Source: Tetracentron sinense
Lineage: Eukaryota; Streptophyta; Magnoliopsida; Trochodendrales; Trochodendraceae
Direction of reading: 5' to 3'
Length of the DNA: 64,000 bases
Assembly (NCBI GenBank): GCA_015143295.1
Contig: CM026565.1
Location: 12,646,041 to 12,710,040, forward strand
Below the pieces are notes generated by a model, which was not told where the DNA came from, ran no database searches, and was given only the letters and a program-made list of their open reading frames with translations. This document shows, in pieces, positions 1,005 to 57,100 of this stretch (position 1 is its first letter; each line of letters starts with the position of its first letter). Made by a program: the position numbers and the translations under genes.

Positions 1005-1150
1005 CTGAAATTTTAACTAGCGGAGTTAATTCATGCATCAACAGCGTATACATGTAGGTATATATACATATAGAACATGCCAAGTACGTACGCAGAGAAT
1101 AGAGCATAACATAATAATCACGAATAAAGAAATTAACTCTAACTGCGTGC
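1005..1150 (-). other. Intron between Gag and protease of A (GC-AG form, copy 1)
   Basis: Minus-strand exon end GTGGTGCAAG is followed by GCACGC. The intron ends AATTTCAG before GAACCCTACTAG. Joining the exons gives V-Q-G-T-L-L in the same frame as the corresponding junctions in C and B. The donor is GC here whereas C has GTATGC and B has GTACGT, so a T-to-C change at donor position 2 is inferred. The 146-bp length is not a multiple of three. It is AT-rich and carries a TATATATACATATAG stretch. Confidence 0.7.
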
Positions 1151-10263: not shown

Positions 10264-10412
10264 CTGAAATTTTAACTAGCGGAGTTAATTCATTAGCATC
10301 AACAGCGTATACATGTAGGTATATATACATATAGAACATGCCAAGTACGTACGCAGAGAATAGAGCATAACATAATAATCACGAATAAAGAAATTAAACT
10401 CTAACTGCGTGC
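10264..10412 (-). other. Gag-protease intron of A (GC-AG, copy 2)
   Basis: Donor GCACGC after exon GTGCAAG at 10413; acceptor AATTTCAG before GAACCC at 10263. The length is 149 bp. It differs from copy 1 by small insertions, including an added A in a run and TTAGC near 10,293. Confidence 0.65.
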
Positions 10413-12020: not shown

Positions 12021-12024
12021 CTTC

Positions 12025-14791: not shown

Positions 14792-14793
14792 AG

Positions 14794-14805
14794 TGGTATC
14801 AGAGC
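14794..14805 (+). promoter_or_regulatory. Primer binding site of copia K
   Basis: TGGTATCAGAGC two bases after the LTR end, the usual initiator tRNA-Met site. The copy at 5529-5540 is identical. Confidence 0.92.
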
Positions 14806-18530: not shown

Positions 18531-19657
18531 CCTAGTTTACAACATTTAAGGGTATGGGGTTGTCCTGCGCATGTTCACAAACTCGAACCCACTAAATTGG
18601 AATCTAGGACAGAGAAATAGAATTTTATAGGATATCCAAAGAAACTAAGGGTTTCTATTTCTACTCCAAGGCAGACTAAACAATAGTTGTTAGGCTTCAT
18701 GCCACTTTCTTGGAGGAAGAAATGGATCTCCTTAAGAAAGTTGAATTTCATGAGATGAAAGACGACACAGCCAGTATCCAAACTGAACTTAATCCTTCCA
18801 CTTTAATTTTTCCTAATTCTGTTCCACTGAGAAGGTCTCAAAGAGTTTCTAGACCACCATATAGACTTCAGTATTACAATAATGAAGTTTATCTAGTTAT
18901 CCCTAATGATGAGGATAAGATCCTAATACTTATCAGGAAGCTACATTGGATGTAGATTCATCTCAATGGAATAAAGCCATGAATGCTGAAATAGATTCCA
19001 TGTATAACAACGGTGTCTGGACTTTAGTAGATCCACTAGACGGTATAAGGCCAATTGGATGCAAAATGGATTTACAAAAGGAAGAAGGGTGCCGATGGTA
19101 ACGTGGAGACCTATAAAGCTAGACTTGTTGCAAAAGGTTATACTCAAATTCAAGGAGTTGATTATGAAGATTCCTTTTCACCTGTACCTATGCTTAAATC
19201 CATCAGGATATTACTAGCTATAACTGCACACCATGACTATGAGATATGGCAAATGGATGTCAAAACTGCTTTCCTTAATGGAATGTTAGATGAAGACATC
19301 TATATGAAGCAACCAGAGTGCTTCATTGCTCCTAACCAGGAGAACATGGTATGCAAGCTCAACAAGTCGATATGTGGTTTGAAACAAGCTTCAAGAAGCT
19401 GGAACCAAAGATTTGATCTTTCGATCAAAGAATTTGGATTCCAAACGAATTTGGAAGAATCTTGTATATACAAAAAGGACAGTGGGAGAGCGATAGTATA
19501 CCTAATTCTTTATGTAGATGACATCCTACTCATTGGGAATGATGTAGAGATGTTGTCATCAGTCAAGATATGGCTTTCTCAGCATTTCTCAATGAAAGAC
19601 TTAGGAGAGGCATCATATATTCTCGGAATAAAGATTCTGAGAGATAGAAAATGCTGA
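18531..19657 (+). pseudogene. Reverse transcriptase of copia K
   Basis: The segment opens with a degenerate connection region (LRVWGCPAHV; SQRVSRPP...). The RT proper runs from about 19,055: MDAKWIYKRK, YKARLVAKGYTQ, DYEDSFSPV, QMDVKTAFLNG, CGLKQASRSWNQRF. The catalytic YVDDI is near 19,511. A TGA at 19,655-19,657 ends the longest open stretch inside GIKILRDRKC. RT copies the element RNA into cDNA in the particle. Confidence 0.88.
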
Positions 19658-24419: not shown

Positions 24420-24555
24420 GTACGTCTATTTGTGTTTTTAGTTAATTAAAATATTGTTCTGATGCTATGCGAGTGATTTTGAATATTATGTAGTATAATG
24501 TATGAAGTATGTATGCATTCATAATTTGAAAAATTAGCTTTGTGTATTAATTCAG
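24420..24555 (+). other. Gag-protease intron of chromovirus B (GT-AG)
   Basis: Donor GTACGTCT after exon ACGTTGTGCAGG; acceptor GTATTAATTCAG before GCTCATTATTG. The length is 136 bp, which is not a multiple of three, and it is AT-rich with in-frame stops. Splicing joins V-Q-G to S-L-L-I-N ahead of the LIDTGSTHSF protease motif. Position and phase are the same as in A and C, although almost no intron sequence is shared. Confidence 0.78.
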
Positions 24556-32010: not shown

Positions 32011-32312
32011 TGTCGCGACCCAAAACCCACCCTAGGAGTTAAAGTGAACTTTGGACGACTAATCATGGCTTACATGACTTGCTTGACAAATCAACCTGCA
32101 AAAACCCACAGAGCATATACAATAAAGGACCTTAAAGCGGAACCATAACCAATAAGCACAGCGGAAGTCTACCAAACCTCTATGTGTATACATACGCAAA
32201 TCCAAGTTTTATACAAAAAGAATCCAAAAGAAAGTGCGGACAGACCCGCCAAGATACATGGATATAAACTCTCATCTCACCCACAGCTAATCCACTCAGA
32301 ATCTACAACCAC

Positions 32313-32432
32313 CTATTGGTAACCCTCTACTGGAGGTTCCTCCAAAGGCTCCTCGACGTACTCCTCTTCCACCCATGGACCAGGAGCACAAACATCAAAT
32401 GGCACAGCAGCTCCCTCAGAACCTGCCGACAT
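32313..32432 (-). CDS. Conserved acidic micro-ORF in the C 3' LTR
   Basis: 39 codons, ATG at 32432, TAG at 32313-32315. It begins MSAGSEG, contains PFDVCAPGPWVEEEYVEEPL and ends EGYQ. It is the same as the copy at 39904-40023. The A versions differ by only a few residues. Its comparison with B and E is given at 3059-3178. Confidence 0.5.
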   Translation of the reverse strand: MSAGSEGAAVPFDVCAPGPWVEEEYVEEPLEEPPVEGYQ

Positions 32433-33854
32433 AAGAAGTACGGCTGAGCATGGAATACTCAGCGGGTACTAAGCACTAACCAACAGTCATAGCATACGGA
32501 TAGCATACATAAAGCAGGAAACAATTCACGCATATAAGCAGGAATGATTCATATCATGACAATAAAGTAAAGCAAGATAATTCATCATGTTGCATTCATA
32601 AAAGCCAGTAAAACCCTTGAAATCTTGTGCACTTGACTTGACTTAAGGTACCATTTTCGTACTTGAAAACTCATCTTGTCTATCTTGCTTGATTCTTGTA
32701 TGTCGTGTCATGTCATGCATGTCATGCGTGCTTGCTTGTGATCATGTAACTTGTGAGATACACTTGTGAGATGTACTTGTGAGATGCGCTTGTGAGATGC
32801 CTTGAGAGGGAAGGGAGATCCTTCTTTATGCAATGCACTTGCGAGGGAAGGGAGACCCTTCTTCATGATATGAATGTACTTGCGAGGGAAGGGAGGCCCT
32901 TCTTCATGATATGCACTTGTGAGTGAGGGGAGACCCCTCATGGAATGTTGGTTCTTGTTTTCTTGCGAAAAGCGAGGTAAAACATATCGTAGGATATGTC
33001 CCACCTCTAATCATGTTCTTGAAAACCTCGATAAATCATGTCATGCATGCCGTGCTCGTGGGAACCGTGTACATACTTGCATTTAATTTTAAATATGACA
33101 TTTGGGTAATTTCACAACACATATAACCTCAATGATTTAGCAATGTAATATTCAAATCATTTAGGGAAAGCAAGAAACACACTATCATAGTCCCTAGCAA
33201 TATTCATAATTTATTAGGCATGCATTTCCGAATTTACAACTCACTTTATTCACTTTGGCATTTCATCAAACATGGTGTGTTCATTATGGATTTACCCTAC
33301 AACATACTTTTCTAGGTGGGTTTTACTCAATTCATATAGGTATGTTCATTATTTGGAACAATGCCCTTCCCCATTTGTTCATCACACACAACCATTGGCA
33401 TCCAGTCGCCCATTCCATCTCCATTCACCATTCACAGCCATCCATCTCATAGCACGTGTAAATAACATAAAGGAAAATAAATAGAAAAGGAGGGAAAGGA
33501 GGAACTATAACTAGGAGGGTAGTAAAAAGTACCGACCTTGAAGGGATGAGGAATAAATCCCTCTTCCAAATGACTGTGAGTTGCTGCCCTAGCTTGGAAC
33601 ACGAGCTTCGCACGAGCTTGAGCCGAGATCTTGAAGAAAACCGGACTGGAAGTGATCTAGGGTTTCAAAACCCTTTGATTTCTCTCCAAAATGGAAACCC
33701 TAGGTTGGAATCGCCTTCTCCCCTTTCTCCTATTCTCTCAAACTCTCTAAGTGTCGAATGATGCCCTAAAGGCTCGGGTTAAACTATTAAGGTAAGAGTG
33801 GACAGACAAAAAGACCCTAATACCCTTACTGAAATTTCTGTAAAAACATGAGGA

Positions 33855-34215
33855 CCGTGAATAGTGTCGAACACGTTGTGCTGTGAACAGTGCCAACTCG
33901 TTGTGCTGTGAATAGTGCCAACTCGTTGTGCTGTGAATAGCGCCAACTCGTTGCGCTGTTAATAGTGCCAACTCGTTGTCCGTTGTGAAGGGTGCCGAAC
34001 CCGTTGTCACGTTGTGTCGTGCAAAGTGCTGAGCTCGTAGTCCGTTGTCTTATGTACAACGTGCCCGTTGTGCTGTACAACGTACACGTTGTCTGCTGTA
34101 CAACGTACCGTTGTCTGTTGCACAACGGATACGTTATCTGCTGCGCGACGGATGCACAACGAATACGTTATCTGCTGCGCGACGGATGCACAACAAGTAC
34201 GTTATCAGAGTACGC
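33855..34215 (-). repeat. ACGTT/ACTCGTTGT array in the C 3' LTR
   Basis: Units GTGCCAACTCGTTGTGCTGT of about 25-26 bp are followed by ACAACGT, CGTTGT, GCGCGACGGATGCAC words, many in inverted pairs (GTACAACGTACACGTTGT). The matching array in the 5' LTR is 41448-41850 and has one extra AACACGTTGTGCTG unit. Confidence 0.8.
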
Positions 34216-34473
34216 CCTTAGCGCCTTCTGAGCTACGTCCTTAGCGCCTTCCGAGCTATTACTTCCTACAGGTCCAGACTTTTTTGGCCATATCTTTTGA
34301 CTCGTTCGTCCGATTTTGACGATTCAACTTGCGTTGGGCTCGTACTTCGAAAAGGAACATTTCTGACATTTTGAAATTTCCAATTTCTTCCTTATTTATT
34401 AATTATACCTCTTTAAAGGCAAAATGACAAGGGAAGTGTCATGCCTCAACTGTGAAAAGGTCAGGGCTCTACA

Positions 34474-34487: not shown

Positions 34488-36214
34488 AAAAATTTCATCC
34501 TCGAAATTCAGACTCTACTTGCATTACAAACCAAAAAGAAAATTAACAGTCATATACAAACTTATACAAAAACTCATTCAATTAATTCTGGGTACTTTGC
34601 TTTGACTTCTGCTTCACGCTCCCATGTAGCTTATTCCCGAGCATGGTGTTGCCATTGCACCAGAATCAAAGGGATTGTCTTGTTGCGAAGCACCTGATTT
34701 CTTCGATCCAAAATCTGAACCGGCTTTTCAATCAAGGTGAGGTCGTCTCGAATCTCCAACGGTTCTAAGTCTATGACATGCGAAAGATCCGCAATGTACC
34801 TTCGAAGCATAGACACATGGAAGACGTTGTGGACTGCGGCCATGTGAGGTGGGAGAGCTACCCTGTAAGCAACCTCACCAACTCGTGTGATAATCTCAAA
34901 AGGCCCAACATACCGAGGACTGAGCTTGCCTCGCTTGCCAAATCTCATGATCCCTTTGCTAGGAGATACTTTCACAAAAACTTGATCCCCCACTTGAAAT
35001 TCCAAGTCCCTACGGCGTGTGTCCGCATAACTTTTCTGACGATCTTGAGTGGCTTTCAATCGATCCCGAATGATCTTAACTGTGTTTGCAGTTTGCTCAA
35101 TCAACTCCAGACCAAGTATTTTCCTTTCTCCTACCTCATCCCAATAGAGAGGAGACCTACAACTTCGCCCATACAAGGCCTCAAATGGTGCCATTTGGAT
35201 ACTTGCCTGATAGCTGTTATTATAGGCAAATTCAACCAAAGGCAAGTGCTCCTCCCAACTGCCTCTGAAATCCAACATACAAGCCCGAAGCATGTCTTCA
35301 ATGACTTGGTTCACTCTCTTGGTTTGTCCATCCGTCTGTGGATGAAAAGCAGTGCTGAAATCAAGTCGGGAACCCATAGCTTCCTGAAAGCTTTTCCAGA
35401 ATCGTGATGTGAATCTTGGATCCCGATCTGACACAATACTGACGGGCACTCCGTGTAACCTCACTACTTCCTTGATGTATAGAGCGGCCAACTGGCTAGA
35501 GTTGAAAGTAGTTCGGTAGGGTAGGAAGTGCGCAGACTTCGTCCGACGGTCTACTACAACCCAAATTGCATATGAGCCCATTGGCGTCTTTGGCAAGCCA
35601 ACTATGAAATCCATGGATATGTTCTCCCATTTCCACTCAGGAATCGGAAGAGAATGCAATAGACCTGCGGGTCGCATGTGTTCTGCTTTCACCTGTTGGC
35701 ACACTAAGCACCGCGCCACATATTCTGCAACATCCCTCTTCATATTCCACCACCAAAAGTGACTCTTGAGGTTCCGGTACATCTTTGTACCCCCTGGATG
35801 CACTGTGTACTTCGAACGGTGTGCTTCATCCAAAATCTCTCTTCGAAGATCTGCATTGGCTGGGACGAACAGTCTTCCTTTGAATGTGATAGCACCCCGA
35901 CTAGTGAGAGAGAAGTCCTCACTACCCTTAGCAACTTCCTTGTCCCGATAAGCCAACAATTCAGCATCCGTGGCTTGGTATTCTTGGATCAAATCTATAA
36001 CGTATGGCCGAACCGTGACATTTGCCAAGATGGGACTACGAACAGAGTCATTCACACTAATGTCCAGATTTGCCAAGTCTTCTAGTAGCTTCCATTCTTG
36101 AACCAACATGTGTGCTAACAATCCTTGAGGTCTTCTACTCAAAGCATCAGCCACTACATTTGCTTTACCCAGGTGGTATTGAATGGTACAATCATAGTCT
36201 TTCAAAAATTCCAT
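34488..36214 (-). pseudogene. RNase H end, integrase and Tekay-type tail of chromovirus C
   Basis: It starts right after a TGA (36,212-36,214 region) that replaces the Trp of RQRRW. Then FLKDYDCTIQYHLGKANVVAD (RNase H end), zinc finger YTVHPGGTKMYRNLKSHFWW with CLVCQQVKAEH, core MDFIVGLPKTPMGSYAIW, SDRDPRFTSRFW and DGQTKRVNQVIED (Lys where Glu of the catalytic triad context DGQTER is usual one residue earlier; the later Glu of VIED remains), then YVGPFEII and [13 protein letters not shown]. The tail ILDRRNQVLRNKTIPLILVQW meets TAA near 34,629 inside the EEATWE block. Confidence 0.9.
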
Positions 36215-37273
36215 TCAACGCCGTTGCCTTAGATTCAGCTCCTTTTGGGAAAAGAGATACTTGAGGCTCTTGTGATCAGTGAACACATAGAACTCCACCC
36301 CATAAAGGTAATGACGCCAAATCTTCAGTGTAAACACGACCGCCGCAAGCTCCAAGTCGTGCGTGGGATAATTCTTCTTATGCTCCTTCAACTGCCTTGA
36401 TGCATAGGCAATGACTTTCTTGTGCTGCATGAGTACACACCCAAGTCCAACGTGTGAGGCATCACTATACACCTCATACCCATAAGGTCCGGATGGCACC
36501 GTAAGGACAGGAGCTGTAGTAAGCCTCTTCTTCAGTTCCGTGAAACTGATCTCACACTTGTCGCTCCATACAAACTTGGCGTTCTTCCTTGTCAGGTAAG
36601 TGAGCGGTGCTGCAAGGCTAGAGAAACCCTCTACGAATCTCCTGTAGTAGCCTGCCAACCCAAGAAAGCTGCGTATCTCCGTGACACTCTTGGGCCTCGC
36701 CCAACTCATGACTGCCTCTATCTTCTTTGGGTCCACCGAAGTGCCTTCCGCTGATACAACGTGGCCTAGGAATGCCACCTCTTCCAACCAAAACTCACAC
36801 TTGCTAAGTTTGGCGTATAGCTTGTGCTCTCTTAGCATTTCCAAAGCAAGGCATAGGTCGCGTCTGTGATCTTCCCGTGTCTGGGAATAGACCAAAATGT
36901 CATCAACAAATACAATCACGCACCTATCAAGATATGGCCGGAACACCCGGTTCATCAAATCCATAAAGGCTGCCGGCGCGTTTGTGAGTCCAAAAGGCAT
37001 CACCAAGAACTCGTAGTGTCCATACCGAGTCCTGAAAGCAGTTTTGGGAACATCTTCCACCTTAATCTTTAACTGGTGATAACCCGATCGAAGATCTATC
37101 TTTGAGAAAAATCTCGCTCCCTTCAACTGATCGAACAAATCATCAATTCTAGGCAATGGGTACTTATTCTTTATAGTGACTTTATTCAGTTGCCGATAGT
37201 CAACGCACATCCGCATCGAGCCATCCTTCTTCTTAACAAATAACACCGGGGCACCCCACGGTGAGACACTTGG
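36215..37273 (-). pseudogene. Reverse transcriptase and RNase H of chromovirus C
   Basis: Open for about 350 codons after the TGA at 37,274-37,276. [55 protein letters not shown], catalytic FVDDILVYS (about 36,890-36,915), [40 protein letters not shown]. RNase [61 protein letters not shown]. All catalytic residues I can place look intact. It ends at TGA replacing Trp in RQRRW. Confidence 0.92.
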
Positions 37274-37276
37274 TCA

Positions 37277-37899
37277 AATGAAACCAAGGCCTTGTAATTC
37301 CTCCAACTGAGTCTTCAATTCTTTGAATTCAATAGGGGCCATTCTATACGGAGTCCTGAAAACAGGAGCTGTGCCTGGTGCAAGCTCGATCATAAACTCA
37401 ATCTCCCTGTCTGGAGGCAATCCTGGAAACTCCTCTGGAAATACATCCAGGAACTCACTCACAACCGGAATAGTCGAAGAGTCCTTTGCCTCAAGGTTCG
37501 CTAAGCTCAATGCCGCAAAACGAGCGATATCTCTACTTTTTAACCCCCGAAAGTGGAATGGTTTTCCTTCTACTGGCTTGAAGAGTACCATTTTCTCAAA
37601 GCAAGCTACATGCCCATGATGTGCTACTAACCAATCCATTCCCAATATAACATCAAAGTCTTGGAATCCAAGGACGATGAGATCAACCGCCAATTCGTGG
37701 CTTCCAACTTGGACCACACTATTTCTATACACTTTATCTGCCAATACTGTTTTGCCGAGAGGAGTCGAAATGGCTAACTCCGGTTCTAGCTGACTTGGCT
37801 CTACAGAAAAGCCTTCTGAAAAACTCGGCAAGACAAACGAATGAGTAGACCCGGTATCAATCAATACTCGAGCCAAATACTCATTGACTAGTAGGGTTC
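37277..37899 (-). pseudogene. Protease and RT start of chromovirus C
   Basis: The exon begins at 37,899 after the intron acceptor (GGAACCCTACTAGTC across the junction). The active site is RVLIDTGSTHSFV, with LGMDWLVAHHGHVACFEKMV after it. The linker [20 protein letters not shown] and RTPYRMAPIEFKELKTQLEE lead into RT. It is ended by TGA at 37,274-37,276, where CGA (Arg of LGFIRPS) is expected; the change fits deamination of a methylated CpG. It has no start codon of its own; expression must come by splicing from gag. Confidence 0.9.
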
Positions 37900-38041
37900 C
37901 TGAAATTTAAACTAGTTACGTCAATTCAAGCATCAACAGAGTATACACATAGGTATATATATATGGCATACCAAGTATGTACACAAGGAATAAAACACAA
38001 CATAGCAAGCACTAATAATGAAAATAACTCCAAACGCATAC
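37900..38041 (-). other. Gag-protease intron of chromovirus C (GT-AG, 142 bp)
   Basis: Minus strand donor GTATGCG after exon GATGTGGTGCAAG (38,042); acceptor AAATTTCAG before GAACCCTACTAG (37,899). Unspliced, the Gag frame runs into the intron and stops at about 37,926 after YLCVYSVDA. Spliced, V-Q-G-T-L-L continues into protease in one frame. 142 is not a multiple of three, so splicing corrects both the stop and the frame. B has the same junction codon and phase, A the same with a GC donor. Confidence 0.8.
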
Positions 38042-39240
38042 CTTGCACCACATCATCAGATGCAAGTGCATCACCCTCTGTCAAAGCAAATACACGCCCC
38101 TGGTGCGCCAGGCGAGACTGAGGTGTAGACCTGTTAGTCTGAGATGACGCCTGATATGATCCTGCTGAGCGTGCTGGTGGCCTGATCCCCTGGGACTGGC
38201 CTGGTAAATGCCGACTGGGGCAATCCCTGATCATATGGCCCTGGCGACCACAATGAAAGCATCCACCCGATGCCCTTCGGCAATCTCCTGCCGGGTGCCT
38301 TCGGCCGCATGAAGTGCAGACCTCGTGTGTATAAGTCGGAGGGGCTGGAAGAGCCTGAGGTCGCGGTGCCTGCGGCTCATACTGCCGGGGAGCTGGAGGC
38401 GCATAAGATGGCCTCATCGGTGGTGTTGGCCACGCATACTGATAAGGGTCGGTACGAGCCCACCTCTCTAGAGGTGCTGAACTACTAGCTTGGCCTCTCG
38501 CCAACTCCCTCTTCTTGGACACTGTCTCAGAATTGGCCTCGACCAATAAGGCCTTGTCTACTACCTCAGGGTAGGTAGCATGTCTGAAAACCGAAACCTT
38601 CTCCATGATAACATCTTTGAGCCCTTGCTCAAACCTTCTCGCCTTCATTACCTCGGTAGCCACCATGTGAGGCGCAAATCTAGAGAGCTCCGAGAACTTA
38701 GCTTCATATTGTGCTACTGACATCGAACCTTGCTCAAGGTTGATGAATTCTCTCTTTCCTTTCCCGTGCTCCGATCGGAAAGTACTTCTTATAAAAAGTG
38801 TCCTTGAACTCCTCCCAAGTCCAAGGTTGACCCTGCATGGTCAAATCTCGCATCCTCAATGCGGACAACCACCAATGGTGGGCTTCGCTCTCTAGCATGA
38901 AAGCTGCCCATGCTACTCTCTCCTCCTCTGTAGGCGAGAGGACCGCAAAGATCTTCTCCATCTGGAGGATCCATGCCTCCGCAGCAAGAGGGTCCACACT
39001 CCCATGGAATGGTGGAGGCCTCAATCTCCTGAATGCCTCAACCCCAGCGGTACGATGTACTGGAGCTGCGGGCGGTGGAGTAGGTGCTGCCGAAGAAGGT
39101 ATAGTCTGCCGAGCCGCCAGTATGGCAAGTGTCTCAGCAATAGAGCCTAAGACCTGAGAGAGGTCCGGCTGCTCATCCTCATCCCGTGAAGAAGAGGAAG
39201 CTCTGGTATGTGGTCCACGACCCCGTGTGCCCCGCCTCAT
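38042..39240 (-). pseudogene. gag: gag of chromovirus C
   Basis: MRRGTRGRGPHTRASSSSRD at 39,240. The core has EAFRRLRPPPFHGSVDPLAA, EAHHWWLSALRMRD (both Trp present), FKDTFYKKYFPIGARE and SVAQYEAKFSELSRFAPH. Knuckles are CTSCGRRHPAGDC and CFHCGRQGHMIRDC at about 38,330-38,225. A two-base loss near 38,745 relative to A shifts the frame between GARE and the LEQGSMSV block; apart from that it is open. It ends ALASDDVVQ at the donor. This is the best preserved gag in the window. Confidence 0.9.
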
Positions 39241-39585
39241 GACTAAAGTCCTGAGAACAATAGCACCACATGAGTCTCACTTGAAACCATAGTTTATTTC
39301 AATGCCATTTCACAATAATTCAATTTGTATTAGTTATATAATACTAATATACATCACATCAAGTCATCAGAGTATTCATCACATCATACTTATACTTTAG
39401 TGTTCTAGCGTACCTAGGACCCGTACTTGGTTAAATCAACCATTTTAGACTAAGACTAAAGTTTAGTCTTACACTTGGATCAAGACTCTCTTCCGACTTA
39501 CTTTCTTCCTAACTTGTTTCCTGACATATGCTCTTGTCAAGCCGTGGTATAAGATTCTAAGTGACCCTAGAGACCTAAAGCCTAA

Positions 39586-39601: not shown

Positions 39602-42087
39602 TGTCGCGACCCAAAACCCACCCTAGGAGTTAGAGTGAACTTTGGACAACTAATCATGGCTTACATGACTTGCTTGACAAATCAACCTGCAAAAACCCAC
39701 AGAGCATATACAATAGAGGACCTTAAAGCGGAAACATAACCAATAAGCACAGCGGAAGTCTACCAAACCTCTATGTGTATACATACGCAAATCCAAGTTT
39801 TATACAAAAAGAATCCAAAAGAAAGTGCGGACAGACCCGCCAAGATACATGGATATAAACTCTCATCTCACCCACAGCTAATCCACTCAGAATCTACAAC
39901 CACCTATTGGTAACCCTCTACTGGAGGTTCCTCCAAAGGCTCCTCGACGTACTCCTCTTCCACCCATGGACCAGGAGCACAAACATCAAATGGCACAGCA
40001 GCTCCCTCAGAACCTGCCGACATAAGAAGTACGGCTGAGCATGGAATACTCAGCGGGTACTAAGCACTAACCAACAGTCATAGCATACGGATAGCATACA
40101 TAAAGCAGGAAACAATTCACGCATATAAGCAGGAATGATTCATATCATGACAATAAAGTAAAGCAAGATAATTCATCATGTTGCATTCATAAAAGCCAGT
40201 AAAACCCTTGAAATCTTGTGCACTTGACTTGACTTAAGGTACCATTTTCGTACTTGAAAACTCATCTTGTCTATCTTGCTTGATTCTTGTATGTCGTGTC
40301 ATGTCATGCATGTCATGCGTGCTTGCTTGTGATCATGTAACTTGTGAGATACACTTGTGAGATGTACTTGTGAGATGTGCTTGTGAGATGCCTTGAGAGG
40401 GAAGGGAGATCCTTCTTTATGCAATGCACTTGCGAGGGAAGGGAGACCCTTCTTCATGATATGAATGTACTTGCGAGGGAAGGGAGGCCCTTCTTCATGA
40501 TATGCACTTGTGAGTGAGGGGAGACCCCTCATGGAATGTTGGTTCTTGTTTTCTTGCGAAAAGCGAGGCAAAACATATCGTAGGATATGTCCCACCTCTA
40601 ATCATGTTCTTGAAAACCTCGATAAATCATGTCATGCATGCCGTGCTCGTGGGAACCATATACATACTTGCATTTAAATTTAAATATGACATTTGGGTAA
40701 TTTCACAACACATATAACCTCAATGATTTAGCAATGTAATATTCAAATCATTTAGGGAAAGCAAGAAACACACTATCATAGTCCCTAGCAATATTCATAA
40801 TTTATTAGGCATGCATTTCCGAATTTACAACTCACTTTATTCACTTTGGCATTTCATCAAACATGGTGTGTTCATTATGGATTTACCCTACAACATACTT
40901 TTCTAGGTGGGTTTTACTCAATTCATACAGGTATGTTCATTATTTGGAACAATGCCCTTCCCCATTTGTTCATCACACACAACCATTGGCATCCAGTCGC
41001 CCATTCCATCTCCATTCACCATTCACAACTATCCATCTCATAGCACATATGTAAATAAAGGAAAATAAAGAGAAAAGAAGGGAAAGGAGGAACTATAACT
41101 AGGAGGGTAGTAAAAAGTACCGACCTTGAAGGGATGAGGAAGAAATCCCTCTTCCAAATGACTGTGAGTTGCTGCCCTAGCTTGGAACACGAGCTTCGCA
41201 CGAGCTTGAGCCGAGATCTTGAAGAAAACCGGACTGGAAGTGATCTAGGGTTTCAAAACCCTTTGATTTCTCTCCAAAATGGAAACCCTAGGTTGGAATC
41301 GCCTTCTCCCCTTTCTCCTATTCTCTCAAACTCTCTAAGTGTCGAATGATGCCCTAAAGGCTCGGGTTAAACTCTTAAGGTAAGAGTGGACCGACCAAAA
41401 GACCCTAATACCCTTACTGAAATTTCTGTAAAAACGCAAGGACCGTGAATAGTGTCGAACACGTTGTGCTGTGAACAGTGCCAAACACGTTGTGCTGTGA
41501 ACAGTGCCAACTCGTTGTGCTGTGAATAGTGCCAACTCGTTGTGCTGTGAATAGCGCCAACTCGTTGTGCTGTTAATAGTGCCAACTCGTTGTCCGTTGT
41601 GAAGGGTGCCGAACCCATTGTCACGTTGTGTCGTGCACAGTGCTGAGCTCGTAGTCCGTTGTCTTATGTACAACGTGCCCGTTGTGCTGTACAACGTACA
41701 CGTTGTCTGCTGTACAACGTACCGTTGTCTGTTGCACAACGAATACGTTATCTGCTGCGCGACGGATGCACAACGAATACGTTATCTGCTGCGCGATGGA
41801 TGCACAACGAGTACGTTATCAGAGTATGCCCTTAGCGCCTTCCGAGCTACGTCCTTAGCGCCTTCCGAGCTACGACTTCCTACAGGTCCAGACTGTTTTG
41901 GCCATATCTTTTGACTCGTTCGTCCGATTTTGACGATTCAACTTGCGTTGGGCTCGTACTTCGAAAATGAACATTTCTAACATTTCGAAATTTCCAATTT
42001 CTTCCTTATTTATTAATTATACCTCTTTAAAGGCAAAATGACAACGGAAGTGTCATGCCTTAACTGTGAAAAGGTCAGGGCTCTACA
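39602..42087 (-). repeat. 5' LTR of chromovirus C (2486 bp)
   Basis: TGTCGCGACCC ... GGGCTCTACA in plus reading, TSD CTCTC at 42088-42092. Hairpin repeats about 40394-40530, micro-ORF 40023-39904, ACGTT-rich array 41448-41850. The LTR differs from the 3' LTR by an added AACACGTTGTGCTG unit and few substitutions. Confidence 0.94.
39904..40023 (-). CDS. Conserved acidic micro-ORF in the C 5' LTR
   Basis: 39 codons, ATG at 40023, TAG at 39904-39906; it appears identical to the 3' LTR copy at 32313-32432. In the genomic RNA it would lie in the 5' leader, well upstream of gag, so it could act as an upstream ORF. Confidence 0.5.
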   Translation of the reverse strand: MSAGSEGAAVPFDVCAPGPWVEEEYVEEPLEEPPVEGYQ

Positions 42088-44559: not shown

Positions 44560-45093
44560 TCACTCAATATTGCACACACCGATGGATTTCCTAAGAAACT
44601 CAAACCTAAGGGAGTCTAGAGGTTTGGTTAGGAGATCTGCAAGTTGAGTATCAGTTTGCACATATTCCAATGTAATGACACTTTTCTCAACAAGCTCTCG
44701 AATAAAATAGTGTCTAATGTCTATGTGTTTGGTGTGAGAGTGTTGCATAGGATTTTTGGAGATGTTGACGGCACTAGTGTTATCACAATACACAGTTATG
44801 GTTCCTTGTTCTATCCCGTAGTCCTGCAACATCTGTTTCATCCACAGAAGTCGAGTGCAACAACTGTCGGCTGCAATGTACTCAGCCTCAGCAGTAGACA
44901 AAGAAATGAAATTCTGTTTTTTGCTAAGCCAAGCAACCAAACAGTTTCCAACATAAAAGCATCCTCCGGAGGTGCTTTTCCTATCATCAGTATTTTTGGC
45001 CCAGTCGGCATCAGAATATCCAACAACCACGGCATTAGTATCAAAGGGATACCAGAGGCCAAAAGAGAGAGTTCCACTTACATATCCAATAAT
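44560..45093 (-). pseudogene. RNase H of the SIRE-type element
   Basis: Open for about 155 codons: VVGYSDADWAKNTDDRKSTS, FYVGNCLVAWLSKKQNFISL, STAEAEYIAADSCCTRLLWM, VYCDNTSAVNISKNPMQHS and KHIDIRHYFIRELVE, to FLRKSIGVCNIE. These hold the copia RNase H acidic residues (YSDADW, AEAEY, CDNTSA) and HIDIRHYFIRE. It is separated from the RT by frame changes near 45,040-45,095. Confidence 0.88.
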
Positions 45094-46250
45094 TCATTTG
45101 ACAACAAGTAAGTGTGACTCTTTTGGGCTTGCTTGATAGCGAGCACAAGCTCCAACACTAAAGGCAATGTCAAGATGACTAGCATTGAGGTAAAGCAGAC
45201 TACCAATCATACTTTGATATGTGGTTTGATTGACACTTTTGCCTAAAGTATCTTTGTTGAGTTTGGTGGTGGTGCTCATAGGAGTGCGAGCATGTTTAGC
45301 TGAGCTCATGCCAAATTTCTTTATAAGGTCTTTGGCACATTTAGTTTGGGACACAGAAATCCCATTGCTCATTTGTTTTACCTACAGACCAAGAAAGAAA
45401 TTCAACTCACCAGTCATGCTCATCTCAAATTCATTCTTCATTTGTTCAGTAAAGGAGTGTGCATGTGAGTCTGATGCGGAACAAAAGACAATATCATCAA
45501 CATATATCTGAGCAATAACCATATCATCCTTGACATTTTTAATGAATAGGGTCCTGTCTACTCCCCCTCTCAAAAATCCCTTTTCTAAGAGGTATGTAGT
45601 TAGTATCTCATACCAAGCTCTGGGAGCTTGTTTCAAACCATAGAGAGCCCTTTTTAATCGGTAAACCTGATCAAGATGATTAGGGTCCTCAAACCCTTTT
45701 GGTTGTTCCACATAAACTTCCTCCTAAAGAATTCCATTTAGAAAAGCACTCTTGACATCCATCTGAAAAAGTTTAAATTTGAGATGGCATGCAACAGCAA
45801 GCAAGATCCTGATAGACTCTAGTCGGGCAACAGGAGCAAATGTTTCATTGAAATCAATGCCCTCAATCTGAATGTATCCCTGTGCAACTAACCTAGCCTT
45901 GTTTCTAACAATGGTACCATGTTCATCAGATTTGTTCTTGAAAATCCATTTAGTACCAATAACATTTGTATTTTTAGGCCTAGGTACTAAAAACCATACA
46001 TCATTCCTTGTAAACTAATTGAGCTCTTCTTGCATGGCATTTATCCAGTTTTCATCAATGAGAGCTTCAGTTACATTTTTGGGTTCAAATGTAGAAGTGT
46101 CGCAAAAGTGACTAACTTCATTTTCAACTTGTTTTCGAGTTCTCACTCCACTTTCAAGGTTTCCAATAATTTCAGTTGAGGAGTGAGGCCTCATAACCCT
46201 AGGATGTGTAGGTTTTTTAGGAGGTGACTTTTAAGATGATTCATTTTCTG
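45094..46250 (-). pseudogene. Reverse transcriptase of the SIRE-type element
   Basis: From about 46,060 leftwards the frame is broken through the finger region (the counterpart of [20 protein letters not shown] is visible). Then [40 protein letters not shown], catalytic [12 protein letters not shown] (about 45,490-45,520), [11 protein letters not shown] and a TAG. After the stop come KCAKDLIKKFGMSSAKHART and TYQSMIGSLLYLNASHLDIA. The YVDD core is intact but the frame is not. Confidence 0.88.
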
Positions 46251-46259
46251 ATTTAGATA

Positions 46260-47509
46260 TTGGAATTTTCACACCACATTTATGGACTCCATAACAATAA
46301 AGGTTCTCAAGTTGTATACTCGATAAGCCCTACTATTTGTGGAATATCCAAGAAAAATCCCTTCATCACTCCAGGAATCAAATTTACCCAATTACTCTCT
46401 ATCCCTAAGGGTATAGCACTTACTTCCGAATACTCGAAAGTACTTGACATTGGGTTTCTTGTTGTACCACAGCTCATAGGGTGTCTTCCTAGTTCTGAGC
46501 CTAGTGTAAACTCTGTTAACAATATAGCATGCAATGCTAACTGCTTCAACCCAGAAATGAGCAGCCAGGTTATTGTTGTGAAGCATCACCCTAGCCATCT
46601 CTTGAAGCACCCTATTCTTTCTTTCCATCACACCATTTTGCTGAGGTGTTATTGGTGATGAAATTCATGCTTGATGCCCGTTTCATCACAAAACTCATTG
46701 TACTTGGAGTTTTCAAACTCCTTTCCATGATCACTTCGAATATGAGTGATAGGGCATCCTTTTTCATTTTGCACTCTCAAGCAGATGTTCTTGAAGTTCT
46801 CAAATGCATTCGACTTCTGTCTTATGAATGCCACTCATGACATCCTTGAGAAATCATCAACCATCACTAGGATATATCGCTTTCCTCCTAGATTTCAGTT
46901 TGAGTTGGACCCATTAGATCCATGTGTATAAGTTCTAGTGGGTGTGACGTAGCGATATTTGAAGCCTTCTTGTGTGGGCTTTTAATTTGTTTGCTAATTT
47001 GACATGGCCCACACACAGCAGTAGAGCGTTTCCCTAGTTTTGGCACACCTCTCACACGCTCGTGTTTTGAGAGTTTGCTTAGGTCTTTGAAATTCATGTG
47101 ACCTAGCCGCCTGTGCCACAGTTCAACTTCTTCAACTTTAGCCCTGTTGCACATTTGAGAATAACTAACACTAGGAATTAAACCATAACAATTGTCAGTG
47201 GTTCTTGACCCTTCCAAAACACACACATCTTTGTCATCCATAACAGAGCACTTGTTGTTGGTAAAGTGGACAGCATGGTGATCATCGCACAATTGACTTA
47301 TGCTAATTAGATTAGCTTTTAGTGCTTCTACAAATAAGACATCCTTCAGTTTAGGAATGCCTGGTGCTTGGATGACACCTTTTCCTTTCACAAAGGATTT
47401 GCTTCCATTACCAAAAGTAACAGTCCCATCCGAGCATTCCTCAAGGTGAGTGAAGAGAGACTTGTTACCAGTCATGTGTCTGGAGCATCAACTATCGAAA
47501 TACCACATG
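46260..47509 (-). pseudogene. Protease and integrase of the SIRE-type element
   Basis: The protease remnant (YFDS*CSRHMTG) has a stop in the active-site loop near 47,490. KLKDVLFVEALKANLISISQ is the usual PR-IN linker. Integrase zinc finger VELWHRRLGHMNFKDLSKLS and CGPCQISKQIKSPH; core LELIHMDLMGPTQTE, then a broken stretch (46,890-46,835), HIRSDHGKEFENSKYNEFC, and ERKNRVLQEMARVM with VEAVSIACYIVNRVY. The segment between the first and second catalytic Asp is frameshifted. Confidence 0.86.
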
Positions 47510-49057
47510 TCAGAATTTTGAGCTTTCAATGTGGATGACAAGGCATTTTAGATCATCCTTTCTCACATAAATGAACTTAGACTTTTGGGAAACCCTATTG
47601 TCTTTGTTCACTTCATTTGTAGGCATAACCTTCTTTTTGTTAGATCTCCTGTTCTTCCTTCTTTTCTGGGTAAACCTTGCATTTTGGTCTATCCTGTTAC
47701 CTTCTTTATGATGAGCATAAGAAGTGTCACGACCATATTTTGTACTAGAGAGTTGAGCAATCTTCATCACTTCTTCACTCAAACTCCTAGACTTTTCTGC
47801 TAAGGCTTGAATTTGCCTTTGGAGATTCCCTTGATGTTGAGTTTGATTCCAAGAACCATTTCGGGGATTTCTCCTAAAGGCATTGCAATTAGGTCGGATG
47901 TGACCCTTCACTCCACAATGGTGACAAGTGGGAATGAACCTGGAAGGAGGAGATCTGTTAGCCTGAGACTGAACTTTTGTTCTCTCAGTTTCAATTGAAT
48001 TTTTACTTTCTCTAGACATGACAAATGTTTGGTACAACTGAGAGTTTGGCATCCTGGATGTTGATCCTGAGGAGATAGAACTCACAAATCTTAGATTTTC
48101 ATGTATTAGCTCAAATCTTGCAGTAGACATTGTTCTTGACATTCAAAGGACCGGATAGTCTGTCTGGATGTCCTATGCCGAACATGTTTACTGTTGAGAA
48201 CTGCATGCTAGCCAGTTTATCCAAGATTTGAGTGTTGCTAAGGAGTCTAGCTTCTTTTTCGAGTTCAGTTACTTTCTTAGCCAACCCATCCTTAACCTTT
48301 AGAATATCAAGAAATTCCTTTTCTAGAAATCTAACTTTTTCAATAAGGTTATTTCTTTCAGATTCCAACTCTGAAATTCGAGTCTTTGACTCTTCAGATA
48401 CACTCATGGAGTTATCTTCCTCAGTTTCTAGAACCTTGATCCATTTGGATAACGAGGCATTTTCTTCTTCAAGGTATTCTAGTTTGGACACCAGTTCAGC
48501 CTTTTCACTTTCAAGCTGAGATACTAGAGCATTCTTCTCTTCTGCTTCTAGTTTGCAAGAGTCACTTTCTTGTTGGGTAAATTTAAGTTGTTTGTTCAAA
48601 GAGATCTTAGCTTTCTTCAGCTTAAGGCTTTCAGAAAACAACCTTTCATAGGCGTTGTCCATATCTTCATCAGACTCAGAGACAATGTGACTCTGATCAT
48701 GATCTTCACTAGACTCACTTACTTGATCTTCATCACTCTTCTCTTTATGAGTAGTGGGAGGATGGTCTATCTCTGATAGGGTGACAGTGAAAGCCATGCG
48801 ATTTTCAGATTCCTCACTTGAGGTAGAGCTTTCAAATTTTTCTTCATCAGAATCACTGTCAGTTCTTTTGGAGACTTTCTTGTTATCTCAAGGTTTTGAC
48901 TTTGGCTTTTCAAGAGGTTTTCCTCCTAGTTTAGGCTTATACCTTCTATTTGTTTTTAGATATTTTTGAAATTTTTTAACAAATAGAGCCAATTCCTTCT
49001 CTCCCAACTCAGCATCACAATCATCCTCATCCAAGGTCTCCTTGACAGTTTTTAAGG
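47510..49057 (-). pseudogene. gag: Gag coiled-coil and zinc-knuckle part of the SIRE-type element
   Basis: Starting after a frame change at about 49,060: a Lys-rich region, an acidic Ser/Glu stretch (SDSDEEKFESSTSSEESE), then a coiled coil of about 190 residues with heptad-like Leu/Glu spacing (KLKKAKISLNKQLKF, SQLESEKAELVSKLEYLEEE, ELESERNNLIEKVRFLEKEF). A frame change near 48,130 leads to the knuckle CHHCGVKGHIRPNC (about 47,925-47,880). Long coiled-coil Gag extensions are characteristic of SIRE/Maximus elements. Confidence 0.85.
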
Positions 49058-52038: not shown

Positions 52039-52567
52039 TGTCACGGTCATTTTGTCCAGTGCTCGGCACATGGCCATGACCCGTGTTTTGTAAGCCTTGT
52101 ACATATGAGTCATGTAAAGTGTCCCGGGGTTTATTGTAAATACCTTTTGTAGTCAAGGGTAGTTTAGTAAGGTAATTTGTAATGGCAGAGTTGTAAATAC
52201 CCCAGTATGACTCCACTAGCAAGGAGGATGTTTCCTTCTGTAAAAGGGTGAAATGTTTATTTTCCTACCTTGAGGAGAGGTGAGCAAGGTGAGTCCTTAG
52301 CCCATGTCCCTTTGAGTTTCTAGCAAGCTCAATCTCCTCACTAATTGTAGTCTGTAAAGAGTTGCTTGGAAGGATCAATAAAGCTTAAAGTTGCTTTCAA
52401 TCAGTGTTGCTTGTTTCTACGTGTTGCTTACTTTGTCCCTTACTGACTTGGTGTGCATCTTCCCACTTGGGAATACTTCTCGGGTGAGTATCTTGTGGTT
52501 GGCTGACTCGCAAGTGTAGCCGTGTGCCGCACGGTCGCTTCGCTTACAAAAAGGTTGGATCATGACA
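52039..52567 (+). repeat. 5' LTR of chromovirus D (529 bp)
   Basis: TGTCACGGTCATTTTG ... GGTTGGATCATGACA. The terminal TGTCA/TGACA ends are inverted repeats. Compared with the 3' LTR only a handful of base changes are seen (for example AGTGCTCGG/AGTACTCGG), so insertion is fairly recent. No clear TATA box. Confidence 0.94.
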
Positions 52568-52569
52568 GT

Positions 52570-52581
52570 TGGTATCAGAGC
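52570..52581 (+). promoter_or_regulatory. Primer binding site of chromovirus D
   Basis: TGGTATCAGAGC two bases after the LTR end at 52567; initiator tRNA-Met type. Confidence 0.92.
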
Positions 52582-52611
52582 GGTCATTGTGATTCTCTAG
52601 AAGTTGGAATC

Positions 52612-53612
52612 ATGCCACCGAGACCGGAATGGACAAACAAAGAGCAGATCAAGGATCTCGAGTCGCAAGCTTCACAACTTGGCGGTTTTGTAGACGGACT
52701 TGCACAACTTGCCGAGCGTGTCGATGTGATCGAGATGGAACAAAGGAATGTTGCTAACACTACTGATATGCTCAGCGAGGACTTTAGGGCTACGGTGGAA
52801 GCCCTACAAGCCGAAATTGGTGACCTTGTTGCTAAGGTGAATGTTCTCACTAGAGCAATGGGAACAACTGGCCCGAATGCAGGTGAAACTTCTAGGATCC
52901 GAATTCCTGAACCTAGAAACTATGCTGGTGCTCGTGATGCAAAAGAACTTGAGAACTTCTTGTTCGATATGGAACAATACTTTCGGGCTGTTAGAATTGA
53001 CTCGGAAGAGACTAAAGTCACAATGGCTACTATGTATTTGGTGGGTGATGCCAAACTGTGGTGGCGAACAAAGTACGATGATATAGTCAGGGGTGTTTGC
53101 ACCATTGACTCATGGGAGGACCTAAAGAGGGAATTGAAGGCACAATTTTTTCCCGAGAATGTCGAGTATATGGCTCGACGAAAGTTGAGAAACCTTCGAC
53201 AAACCGGTACTGTTCGCAAATATGTGAAGCAATTCTCGGCATTGATCCTGGACATTCGAGATATGTCCGAGAAGGAAAAGCTATTCTATTTCCATGAAGG
53301 CCTCAAACCTTGGGCCTAAACTGAGTTACAAAGACAAAGGGTACAAGATCTGGCGTCAGCGCAAGCTACGGCCGAGCGCTTAACCGACTATACTACCGAG
53401 GATGGTGGGAAGAAGAAAATAGCTTACTCGGGAAACTCAAGCTCGAGTGCTAAGTCGGGGAAGTTTAACAAGCCCAAGAGTGGGGGAGGTGATAAGAGAC
53501 CTTCAGGATCCTCACAATTCAAAGGATCCACATCGTCTTCAGCTAGGTCGAAGACTATTAGTTGCTTCCTTTGTGGAGGGCCACATCGGATTGCTATGTG
53601 CCCACAAAAGTA
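52612..53612 (+). pseudogene. gag: gag of chromovirus D
   Basis: The start is ATG 52612 (MPPRPEWTNKEQIKDLESQA), chosen because it is the first ATG after the primer site. A coiled-coil-like N-terminus (LAERVDVIEMEQRNVANTTD) precedes the Gag core ELENFLFDMEQYFRAV, VGDAKLWWRTKYDDI, WEDLKRELKAQFFPEN and FSALILDIRDMSEKEKLFYF. TAA at 53,317 interrupts after GLKPWA. The tail is Ser/Lys-rich with a single knuckle CFLCGGPHRIAMC (about 53,570-53,608) and another stop right after CPQK. Confidence 0.88.
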
Positions 53613-54300
53613 GGCTTTGAATGCCTTACAACAGTCTCCTCAAGCTGAGATAGTGCTTGAAGAGGACGAAGGTGAGGAGCCAACTCGGATGGGTGCTCTA
53701 CGGTTGCTTAATGCTGTGAAGAAGCAAAGTGTAGAGAAGAAATCAGCCCCTACCAAAGGTCTTATGTATGTTGAATTGAAGATCAATGGTAAGCTGACCC
53801 GTGCTATGGTCGACACAGGGGCCACTCATAACTTTGTGGCGGGTTCGGAAGTGAAACGGCTCGGCTTGAATCTAGAGAAGGATTCTAGTCGAATGAAAGC
53901 GGTAAACTCAGAGGCCAAACCAATCCATGGTGTGGCCAAGTCGATACATGTGAAGTTGGGCGACTGGGAAGGAAGAATGAACCTTACAGCTGTTCTGTTG
54001 GATGATTTTCAAGTCATTCTTGGGATGGAGTTCCTAAGAGAGACTAAGGCGGTACCGATGCCATTCTCAAACTCAATTTGTCTACTCGGAGATAACCCTT
54101 GCATGGTTCCTGCCACTAACAAAGCAAGTGAAGAGAATTTTCTATCAGCCCTCCAACTGAAGAAGGGTCTGAAGAAGGGGGAACCAACTTATGTGGCTTC
54201 CCTTGTGGAAGTGCAAGAGGAGTTGAGAGAAGCTCCTATACCAAAAACTGTGCAACAAATCTTGAAGGAGTTCGAGAATGTGATGCCTGGTGAACTCCCC
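53613..54300 (+). pseudogene. Aspartic protease of chromovirus D
   Basis: The frame is open from about 53,616. Protease active site MVDTGATHNFVAGSEVKRLG (about 53,806), then VKLGDWEGRMNLTAVLLDDF and VILGMEFLRETKAVPMPFSN. No intron signal like that of A, B and C is seen between the knuckle and protease; here gag and protease are separated only by a stop codon. It leads into the RT linker ([12 protein letters not shown]). Confidence 0.87.
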
Positions 54301-55195
54301 AAGTCATTGCCTCCGAGAAGAGGGAGTCGATCATCAAATAGAATTGGTTCCTGGAGCTAAACCACCTACAAGAGGGGCATATCGTATGGCTCCGCTAGAG
54401 TTGGCAGAATTGAGAAAACAATTGGATACCTTGCTGGAGTCAAGGTTTATCCGGCCATCAAAGGCCCCATTTAGAGCACCTGTGCTATTTCAGAAGAAGC
54501 AGGATGGAAGCTTAAGGCTGTGTGGATTATCGTGCCTTGAACAAGTTAACTGTCTGGAACAAATACCATATCCCTCTTATTGCAGATTTGTTTGATCAGT
54601 TGGGAGCTGCAAGATATTTCTCTAAGCTTGATTTAAGGTCAGGCTATTATCAAGTACGCATTGTTGAGGGAGATGAGCCAAAGACTGCATATGTAACTAG
54701 ATATGGTGCTTTTGAGTTTTGGTCATGCCATTTTGGTTGACCAATGCCCCTGCCACATTTTGCACCCTCATGAATGAAATCTTCCACGAGTATCTGGATA
54801 AGTTCGTGGTGGTGTATCTTGATGATATTGTCATATATAGCTCCTCGTTGGAGGAGCATGTTGGGCATTGACGCACCATATTCCAGTTACTCCAGAAGAA
54901 CCACTTATTTGTGAAGAGAGAAAAGTGCTCATTTGCTCAAGAGCACATTATGTTCCTCAGACACCAAGTTGGCGTAAGGATGGATATGAAGAAGGTGCAG
55001 GCTATCCAGGAATGGAAGGCCCCAACCAAGATGAGTGAGCTACGCTCATTCCTTGGACTGGTGAACTATTACAGGAGATTCATTCTAGGGTACTCCAAGT
55101 GTGATGCTCAACTAACCGACTTACTGTAGAAAGATCGGATTTGGTCTTGGTCACAAGAATGCCAAGACGTATTTGAAGACCTCAAGAATGTTGTA
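54301..55195 (+). pseudogene. Reverse transcriptase of chromovirus D
   Basis: A frame change near 54,325 precedes [20 protein letters not shown] and [18 protein letters not shown]; a one-base shift near 54,522 leads to [33 protein letters not shown]. Another near 54,720 precedes the catalytic [12 protein letters not shown] (about 54,810-54,840). TGA follows EEHVGH (54,868) and TAG follows LTDLL (55,127). The YLDD form is common in this group. Confidence 0.87.
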
Positions 55196-55620
55196 ATGAG
55201 CAATCCAGTCCTTACTCTGCCAAATTTGGGGAAAGCCTTTGAGGTCCAAACTGACGCATCAGACTATGCTTTAGGGGGTGTACTTCTACAAGACGGCCAT
55301 CCAGTTGCTTATGAGAGCCGAAAGCTCAATGATGCCGAACGAAGATACACTGCCCAAGAAAAAGAATTATTGGTTGTTATTCATTGTCTCCGGGTGTGGA
55401 GGCATTATCTACTTTGTTCAAAGTTTATCGTAAAGACGGACAACTTTGCGGTAAGCCACTTCTTGACCCAAAAGAAACTCACTCCCAAGCAAGCTCGATG
55501 GCAGGAGTTCCTTGCCGAGTTTGACATCGAGCTAGAATATAAGGCAGGACGCACTAATCAAGTAGCGGATGCCTTGAGCCAGAAGACCGAGTTTGCGGCT
55601 TTGAAATTGGTGGGTCACTT
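55196..55620 (+). pseudogene. RNase H of chromovirus D
   Basis: Motifs FEVQTDASDYALGGVLLQDG, YESRKLNDAERRYTAQEKEL, WRHYLLCSKFIVKTDNFAVS and ELEYKAGRTNQVADALSQK are intact and in one open frame that continues into integrase for about 400 codons. The catalytic D-E-D-D residues are present in these motifs. Confidence 0.88.
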
Positions 55621-56425
55621 GACGGCGAGTAAGGTGACTGATAGCATACGGGAGCAAACTAAAGAAGGGCTTGACCAAGATCCTACAGCCAAAACCATAA
55701 TTCAACTTGCCAAGGAGGGCAAGACGCGTCGATTTTGGTTGGAGGATGGTTTCCTCCTTACCGAGAGAAGGTGCTTGTTTGTGCCTAGAGCGGGTGAACT
55801 GTGCAAATTACTTCTGAAAGAATGTCATGACACTTTGTGGGCAGGTCATCCGAGTTGGCAACGCACCATGGCCTTGTTGAAACAGAACTATTATTGGCCA
55901 AATATGAAAGATGATGTGATGTGGTACACTAAGACTTGCCTCATCTGCCAACAGGACAAAGTTGAGAGAAAGAAGGCATTAGGACTCCTACAACCGCTAC
56001 CGGTACCAAAGAGACCATGGGGGAGTGTCTCAATGGACTTCATAACTAACCTGCCTCAAGTGGGGGAGTATGGGTCAATATTGGTGGTTGTGGACAGGTT
56101 TTCCAAGTATGCAACTTTCATCCCAGCACCAAAGTACTGCTCGGTAGAGGAGGTAGCTTATTTGTTCTTTAGACATGTTGTCAAATACTGGGGAGTGCCT
56201 CAAAATTTGGTAAGCGATCGAGATACTCGGTTCACAGGACGGTTTTGGACCGAGATATTTCGACTGTTGGGGTCGAAGCTAGACTTTTCTTCAAGCTACC
56301 ATCCACAAACTGATGGGCAGACAGAGAGATTCAATGGTTTGCTTGAAGAATATTTACGCCACTTTGTAACTGCTAACCAAAGAAATTGGGTTAATCTTCT
56401 GGATGCAAAAGAGCTCCTCTACTAA
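55621..56425 (+). pseudogene. Integrase of chromovirus D
   Basis: Zinc finger H-H-C-C: ECHDTLWAGHPSWQRTMALL with CLICQQDKVERKKALG. Core: VSMDFITNLPQVGEYGSILV, LVSDRDTRFTGRFWTEIFRL, SSYHPQTDGQTERFNGLLEE, so D-D-E is complete. After WVNLLDAKELLY a TAA ends the frame. Compared with relatives a stretch of core C-terminus appears deleted at about 56,400, where the next frame (SSSTNKSPFEIVTGQQPLLP) begins with a 23-bp overlap. Confidence 0.88.
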
Positions 56426-57089
56426 CAAGAGTCCTTTTGAGATTGTTACAGGACAACAACCACTGTTACCTCACACAGTGGCCCAGCATTATACAGGTTC
56501 AAGCCCAAAAGCCTACCAATTCACTAAGGAGTGGAATAGAAACGCTGATATTGCACGTGCCTATTTGGAGAAAGCGTCAAAGCGGATGAAGAAATGGGCC
56601 GACCAAGATAGAAGACCAGGGGAATTCCAAGTGGGAGATCTAGTCCTTGTCAAGCTTCTTCCGGAACAAGTGAAATTCTTTCGGAAAGTCCACAACAAGC
56701 TTGTTCGAAAGTATGAAGGTCCAGTTCCTGTTGTTGCTCGTGTGGGCAAGACCTCCTATAAAGTTCAGCTTCCGTCATGGTTGAAGGTCCACCCAGTATT
56801 CCATGCCTGCAACATCAAGCCATACCATCCTGACATGGAAGATTCAACTCGCAACATCCCTGTCAGAACTGCACCAAAGGCGACAAGTTCGAGTGTTCGT
56901 GAAGTAGAGCGCATCTTGGCAGATCGTGCAGCGCCAACACTCAAACATCCACAGCGAGAATACCTTGTGAAATGGAGGGGCCGAGGGGATGAAGATACAA
57001 GCTGGGAACTAGCCGAAGACCTACGCCCGTTCGAAGACAAGATTGCAGAGTATCAAGCCTTAGAGTCTACGAGGGCGTCGACTGTTTAA
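56403..57089 (+). pseudogene. Integrase C-terminus and chromodomain of chromovirus D
   Basis: About 228 codons: NKSPFEIVTGQQPLLPHTVA, ARAYLEKASKRMKKWADQDR, FQVGDLVLVKLLPEQVKFFR, VRKYEGPVPVVARVGKTSYK, VHPVFHACNIKPYHPDMED. The canonical chromodomain is REVERILADRAAPTLKHPQR, EYLVKWRGRGDEDTSWELAE, DLRPFEDKIAEYQALEST. The two Trp of KW and SW support histone methyl-lysine binding, unlike the Tekay tails of B, C and E. It ends TAA 57,087-57,089 just before the polypurine tract. Confidence 0.9.
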
Positions 57090-57100
57090 GTGGGGGAGTC
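57089..57100 (+). promoter_or_regulatory. Polypurine tract of chromovirus D
   Basis: AGTGGGGGAGTC directly before the 3' LTR TGTCACGG. It overlaps the chromodomain stop codon, so there is no 3' untranslated internal region. Confidence 0.87.

Follow-up and report, generated by a model that had tools for sequence, protein, structure and literature searches.

How does a retrotransposon make its protease and polymerase when the frame encoding them is cut off from that of Gag by a stop codon? The question is raised by an element bounded by long terminal repeats (LTRs), here called element C, in a stretch of 64,000 nucleotides of Tetracentron sinense DNA (assembly GCA_015143295.1, contig CM026565.1, positions 12,646,041 to 12,710,040), the whole of which is referred to as the window. 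The Gag frame of element C continues past the zinc knuckles, reads V-V-Q-G and then meets a stop within positions 37900-38041; protease follows from 37899 in another frame. An initial annotation had described this arrangement, which is indeed seen in the open reading frames (ORFs), and had proposed that the interval is a spliceosomal-type intron whose removal would join Gag to protease in frame. Exon 1 ends in GTG CAA G and exon 2 starts with GA ACC CTA, which places the junction in phase 1 in the G of V-Q-G/T-L-L. We consider it very probable that the interval is a true spliceosomal intron, which separates gag from protease in a high-copy Ty3/gypsy family and the partial splicing of which gives Gag on the one hand and Gag-Pol on the other, and that spliced RNA is at times reverse-transcribed.

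The first line of evidence is a survey of the genome to which the window belongs (1.16 Gb, 1479 contigs). A search with the protease piece of C, in which 150 of 17250 candidates were scored, and a subsequent selection gave 50 loci, namely the 30 that came back with the search and a further 20 that included two chosen for their long open frames. Between the exons, 48 of the 50 carry 140-148 bp; one (L049) is without exon 1, and in one (L040) there are 0 bp, Gag and protease forming a single natural frame at exactly the predicted junction. This copy, which was found through its long open frame and not by any junction pattern, provides in nature the joining that had been predicted from removal of the 142 bp from C. 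With a 36-nt junction pattern taken from L040, and up to 3 mismatches allowed, fused exon ends from which the interval is exactly missing are found at 43 places in the genome, whereas the reversed pattern, and patterns shifted by 6 nt into the intron or by 6 nt into exon 1, each find 0 places genome-wide. The claim of a real intron at the border of zinc knuckle and protease is upheld by this result. The intron 3' end joined to exon 2 occurs at 3082 places, so that intron-free places amount to about 1.4% of the intron-bearing ones, a ratio of standing copies and not a rate. Of the 43 junction loci 30 were fetched; in each of them the exons directly adjoin (0 bp), as selection by that pattern would imply.

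A second line of evidence is provided by the introns themselves, the 48 intron-bearing copies (C included) representing 39 distinct introns. All 39 have GT at the donor, A at position +3 and AG at the acceptor, and 38 end in TTTCAG; scoring of GT/AG conservation had been suggested by the initial annotation as a check in other Tekay elements. The length drifts, with values (140-148 bp) in all three classes modulo 3 (6, 23 and 10 introns for classes 0, 1 and 2). In 38 of the 39 the Gag frame meets a stop within the intron, at distances from the donor that range between 6 and 138 nt. Pairs of copies are on average 0.836 identical in the intron, as against 0.930 and 0.971 in the 150 bp of each exon next to it; column conservation is 0.900 in the intron, and at third codon positions 0.900 in exon 1 and 0.954 in exon 2. 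In the 48 copies the intron is 42% T and 33% GC, as compared with 21% and 31% T, and 56% and 47% GC, in the exons. This T-rich, GC-poor pattern is that quoted for plant introns (PMC3735527).

The third line of evidence concerns the origin of the intron-free copies. In a tree of 78 rows, 30 of which are intron-free, built from the 1300 bp that follow the junction, at least 18 changes of state are required, 9 of them forced by starred branches; without L070, a row that runs into other DNA, the 77 remaining rows give 19 changes, 8 of them forced, and a tree from 800 bp before the junction (78 rows) gives 19 changes, 12 of them forced. A tree in which 29 intron-free rows have a single origin is rejected, its log-likelihood being worse by 575 (p-AU 0.0005). 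The intron-free locus L060, whose position is that of L040, has 99.8% identity with the intron-bearing L021. These trees indicate that intron-free copies arose more than once within intron-bearing lineages, and such copies appear to be fossils of spliced RNA that was reverse-transcribed back into DNA.

It had been claimed that the same intron occurs in three families of the window, represented by elements A, B and C. In B the boundary does lie at the same codon and in phase 1, and the intron sequence is, as stated, not recognizably shared with C: the alignment of the two introns scores 84, within the range of shuffled sequences (200 shuffles: mean 65.6, sd 7.4, highest 89). Of 1645 candidate DNA matches to the B region 40 were scored, and all 40 extend across the interval, the scoring being one that favours such matches. 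The case of A is different. The same interval is present in both of its copies, A1 and A2, with a GC donor in place of GT, a difference that the initial annotation had overlooked, and here the intron sequence is shared, 112 of 146 aligned positions being identical to C. In the DNA behind the interval, A1 shares 93.8% identity with C over 388 aligned bases and A2 91.6% over 391, and the two copies are a single tandem duplication (window 1-7577 and 9265-16849, 99.1% identity over 7603 aligned bases); C and A are 69.5% identical to B in DNA. Since A1 and A2 are duplicates of each other and belong to the C family, the window is best taken to hold two families, C/A and B, rather than three, and A was dropped as independent support. 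The A elements also contain arrays of a 26-bp repeat (window 4679-5052 and 13943-14316).

The initial annotation had named as adverse to the intron the existence of related elements with a continuous frame and neither donor nor acceptor. Such relatives do occur: eight loci (L001-L008), taken from a protease-family search of the same genome, all have a continuous gag-protease frame across the boundary, without either splice site. They share a V-x-G/T boundary, and their alignment with the C family has no gap where the spliced codon lies (35 residues of the C family against 35 of L001 around it). They represent at least two other abundant families, with proteins about 59% identical to those of the C family, and we read them as intronless families beside that of C. 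In the shared protein stretch, C-type elements and B are 72-74% identical, both show 55-59% identity with L001 and L002, and the latter two are 69% identical to one another; because C and B are closer to each other than either is to L001 or L002, they look like sisters with a common intron, for which gain on their branch and loss in the other are both possible. Among public proteins, the Gag piece of C gave five matches. One (P0001, from a 942-bp contig), 53% identical to the Gag of C, ends 11 residues behind ...SDDVVQG, as expected of a donor at that codon, so that a second plant may have this intron too; another (P0005) continues through protease. The protease piece gave 2311 matches, of which 120 were listed and seven inspected: P0006 and P0013 continue through the boundary, P0008 starts at it, and P0007, P0009, P0025 and P0082 start behind it. 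Scans of viral contigs with the protease piece and the reverse transcriptase (RT) piece found no relative.

In the mechanism that we propose, host splicing would remove the intron from part of the transcripts, and the spliced RNA would be translated into Gag-Pol. The stop inside nearly every intron allows unspliced RNA to yield Gag but keeps it from yielding Gag-Pol in frame; this RNA would serve both as message for Gag and as the usual template for reverse transcription, the latter being suggested by the retention of the intron in most copies. Occasional reverse transcription of spliced RNA would then yield the intron-free copies. It may be supposed further that, with splicing only partial, more Gag is made than Gag-Pol. 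The spliceosomal nature of the interval, as first proposed, is supported by L040, the 43 junction places, the repeated losses, the invariant GT and AG, the base composition and the lengths modulo 3.

A number of observations weigh against this scheme. Shuffled labels need about 24 changes, more than the 18-19 observed, and this clustering means that some of the intron-free copies have a common ancestor, were multiplied or exchanged sequence; the junction could also be moved by template switching among packaged RNAs. As judged from the trees, separate events of splicing and copying number more than one but not 43. Nor are the intron-free copies plainly dead ends, because 10 of 30 have no stop in both tested pieces, as compared with 26 of 48 intron-bearing copies. 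The 147-bp intron of L039 (G000:C23:28694500-28698500) has no Gag-frame stop, and a frame of 1596 residues runs through it unspliced. An ATG in the protease frame is found in 29 of the 39 distinct introns and is absent from 10, so that separate initiation of Pol may occur. The third positions of exon 1 are as conserved as the intron columns, and A1 and A2 have the GC donor. For B, the acceptor is found at 464 places, and the exact junction at one place, with 3 mismatches and with the common B-type letters of exon 2; a B junction pattern with the window's own letters finds 0 places genome-wide.

The most durable alternative, which we nevertheless regard as unlikely, accepts that the intron is spliced and holds that it sorts RNA without setting a ratio: nearly all translated RNA would be spliced and give Gag-Pol, and the intron-retaining RNA would be the packaged genome. 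The excess of acceptor over junction places implies that the templates of reverse transcription are mostly unspliced, and the continuous frame of all eight intronless relatives indicates that some of the kin manage without a Gag-only RNA, as this alternative would have it; on the other hand, the Gag-frame stop in 38 of 39 introns makes the unspliced RNA a Gag-only message that is available for translation. A related suggestion, somewhat short of even in our estimation, is that the intron is a sorting tag, splicing committing an RNA to translation as Gag-Pol and only intron-retaining RNA being packaged with good fidelity. Were this so, repeated reverse transcription would leave the intron in place in a family with thousands of copies, and the intron-free share (43 against 3082 places) would be a standing record of sorting failures.

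Alternatively, Pol might be made from unspliced RNA by frameshifting, readthrough or separate initiation, with splicing incidental. The protease-frame ATG of most introns and the open reading of L039 are what such a route would use, but we think it very improbable: the drift of length and frame makes it unlikely that one frameshift, readthrough or internal start could act in every copy, and no single frameshift or start can serve them all, given the three length classes, the scattered positions of the Gag-frame stop and the 10 introns that have no protease-frame ATG. Least probable, indeed barely credible, is the view that the intron-free copies are DNA deletions or survivors of an older intronless lineage. 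In its favour, AG-G recurs at both ends of the interval and, being a short repeated word, might promote deletion; there are intronless sister families; and the intron-free copies cluster somewhat. Against it, the shifted junctions number 0 and 0 against 43, the rejection of a single origin strains it, and L060 is almost identical to a copy that has the intron.

Some known elements offer partial precedents for a spliced gag-pol. In foamy retroviruses Pol is a separate protein and not part of a Gag-Pol, and in that respect they are unlike the C family as proposed. Their Pol functions come from spliced RNA (PMC5014426), as those of the C family would. Ogre, of the Tat lineage of plant Ty3/gypsy elements, has a gag-pol intron that is removed from a subset of transcripts to give the whole polyprotein (PMC6317226); the intron of the C family also lies in gag-pol, but before protease, is 140-148 bp long and belongs to another Ty3/gypsy family. 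According to the same source, Ogre and Bianca have two frames, separated on average by 274 and 172 bp, most groups having one (PMC6317226). BARE1 of barley (Ty1/copia) has a partly spliced, T-rich intron of 104 nt near the gag/protease border (PMC3735527). It resembles the C family in having a short, plant-like intron at this place and differs in its logic, because unspliced BARE1 RNA gives Gag-Pol and spliced RNA gives only Gag. Spliced transcripts are also described for CRR (a centromeric Ty3/gypsy element), EVADE (copia) and Bagy-2 (PMC3735527, PMC12786077), CRR splicing removing rt and that of EVADE and Bagy-2 producing subgenomic RNAs; as described there, none joins Gag to protease, in contrast to the splicing proposed for the C family. 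The sugar-beet chromoviruses, which have a related gag-pol, are described with one continuous frame and no intron (Weber 2013, PMC3605345), again unlike the C family, and a 2025 review presents plant LTR elements as mostly intronless, naming Ogre and EVADE as exceptions (PMC12786077). In the open literature that was searched, the scope of which leaves out most subscription papers, we found no description of a chromovirus with an intron at the border of gag and protease. What the present genome offers is a very abundant family with a short intron at the gag/protease border and natural intron-free copies beside intron-bearing ones. The division of RNA between translation and packaging, and an excess of Gag over Gag-Pol without frameshifting, become testable here, the two RNA forms differing by one junction.

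The features of the elements are collected in Table 1. Between LTRs that are 97.1% identical, the Pfam matches of C lie in the order gag, protease, RT-RNase H, integrase, that of a Ty3/gypsy LTR retrotransposon. Element C is damaged: the Gag frame changes between 38734 and 38840, and in-frame stops interrupt pol at 37274-37276 and 36215-36217. A scan of the C interval for bacterial promoters and terminators has no bearing on the question.

Table 1. Coordinates (window positions) of the putative introns and of the coding and terminal regions of element C.
Feature	Position	Strand	Remarks
Intron of element C	37900..38041 (38041..37900)	minus	142 bp, GTATGC...TTTCAG, phase 1
5' splice site of C, GTATGC	38036..38041	minus	GT in 39/39 distinct introns of the family
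3' splice site of C, TTTCAG	37900..37905	minus	AG in 39/39, TTTCAG in 38/39 distinct introns
First Gag frame of C	38734..39276	minus	ORF; Pfam PF03732
Second Gag frame of C (capsid end, zinc knuckles, tail, stop in intron)	37926..38840	minus	ORF; Pfam PF03732, PF00098
Zinc knuckles of C	about 38280-38318 and 38220-38261	minus	one by PF00098; first knuckle read by eye
Exon 2 of C (protease up to in-frame stop)	37274..37899	minus	Pfam PF08284 RVP_2, E 2.2e-29
Reverse transcriptase and RNase H of C	36215..37273	minus	Pfam PF00078, PF17917, PF17919
Integrase region of C, last pol frame	34631..36214	minus	Pfam PF17921, PF24626
5' LTR of C	39602..42087	minus	97.1% identity with 3' LTR, 2489 aligned bases
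3' LTR of C	32011..34473	minus	partner of 39602..42087
Intron of element B	24420..24555	plus	136 bp, GTACGT...ATTCAG, phase 1, same codon as C
Interval in A1	1005..1150	minus	146 bp; donor GC
Interval in A2, duplicate of A1	10264..10412	minus	149 bp; donor GC

We file element C as Ty3/gypsy; the label of Tekay chromovirus is that of the initial annotation and is not established. The LTRs of about 2.5 kb are compatible with Tekay, as is what we take to be a tRNA-Met-type primer site 4 nt behind the 5' LTR. With the E limit relaxed to 10, a chromodomain (PF00385) was still not detected in the B-like piece 60377-60844 or in the last pol frame of C, which is cut by a stop; the letters behind that stop resemble the tail of type II chromodomains. 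Ogre/Tat elements are marked by an intron that separates protease from RT and by a second RNase H; assignment to them is disfavoured by the position of the intron before protease and by a single RNase H region (two overlapping models, 36218-37273), no second RNase H being found by Pfam in the last pol frame of C. Elsewhere in the window, another gypsy element (52039-57629) has end repeats of 529 bp that are 97.4% identical and a Pfam chromodomain at 56370-57086, and the broken frames at 16971-19657 and 44560-48887 are copia-like by eye.
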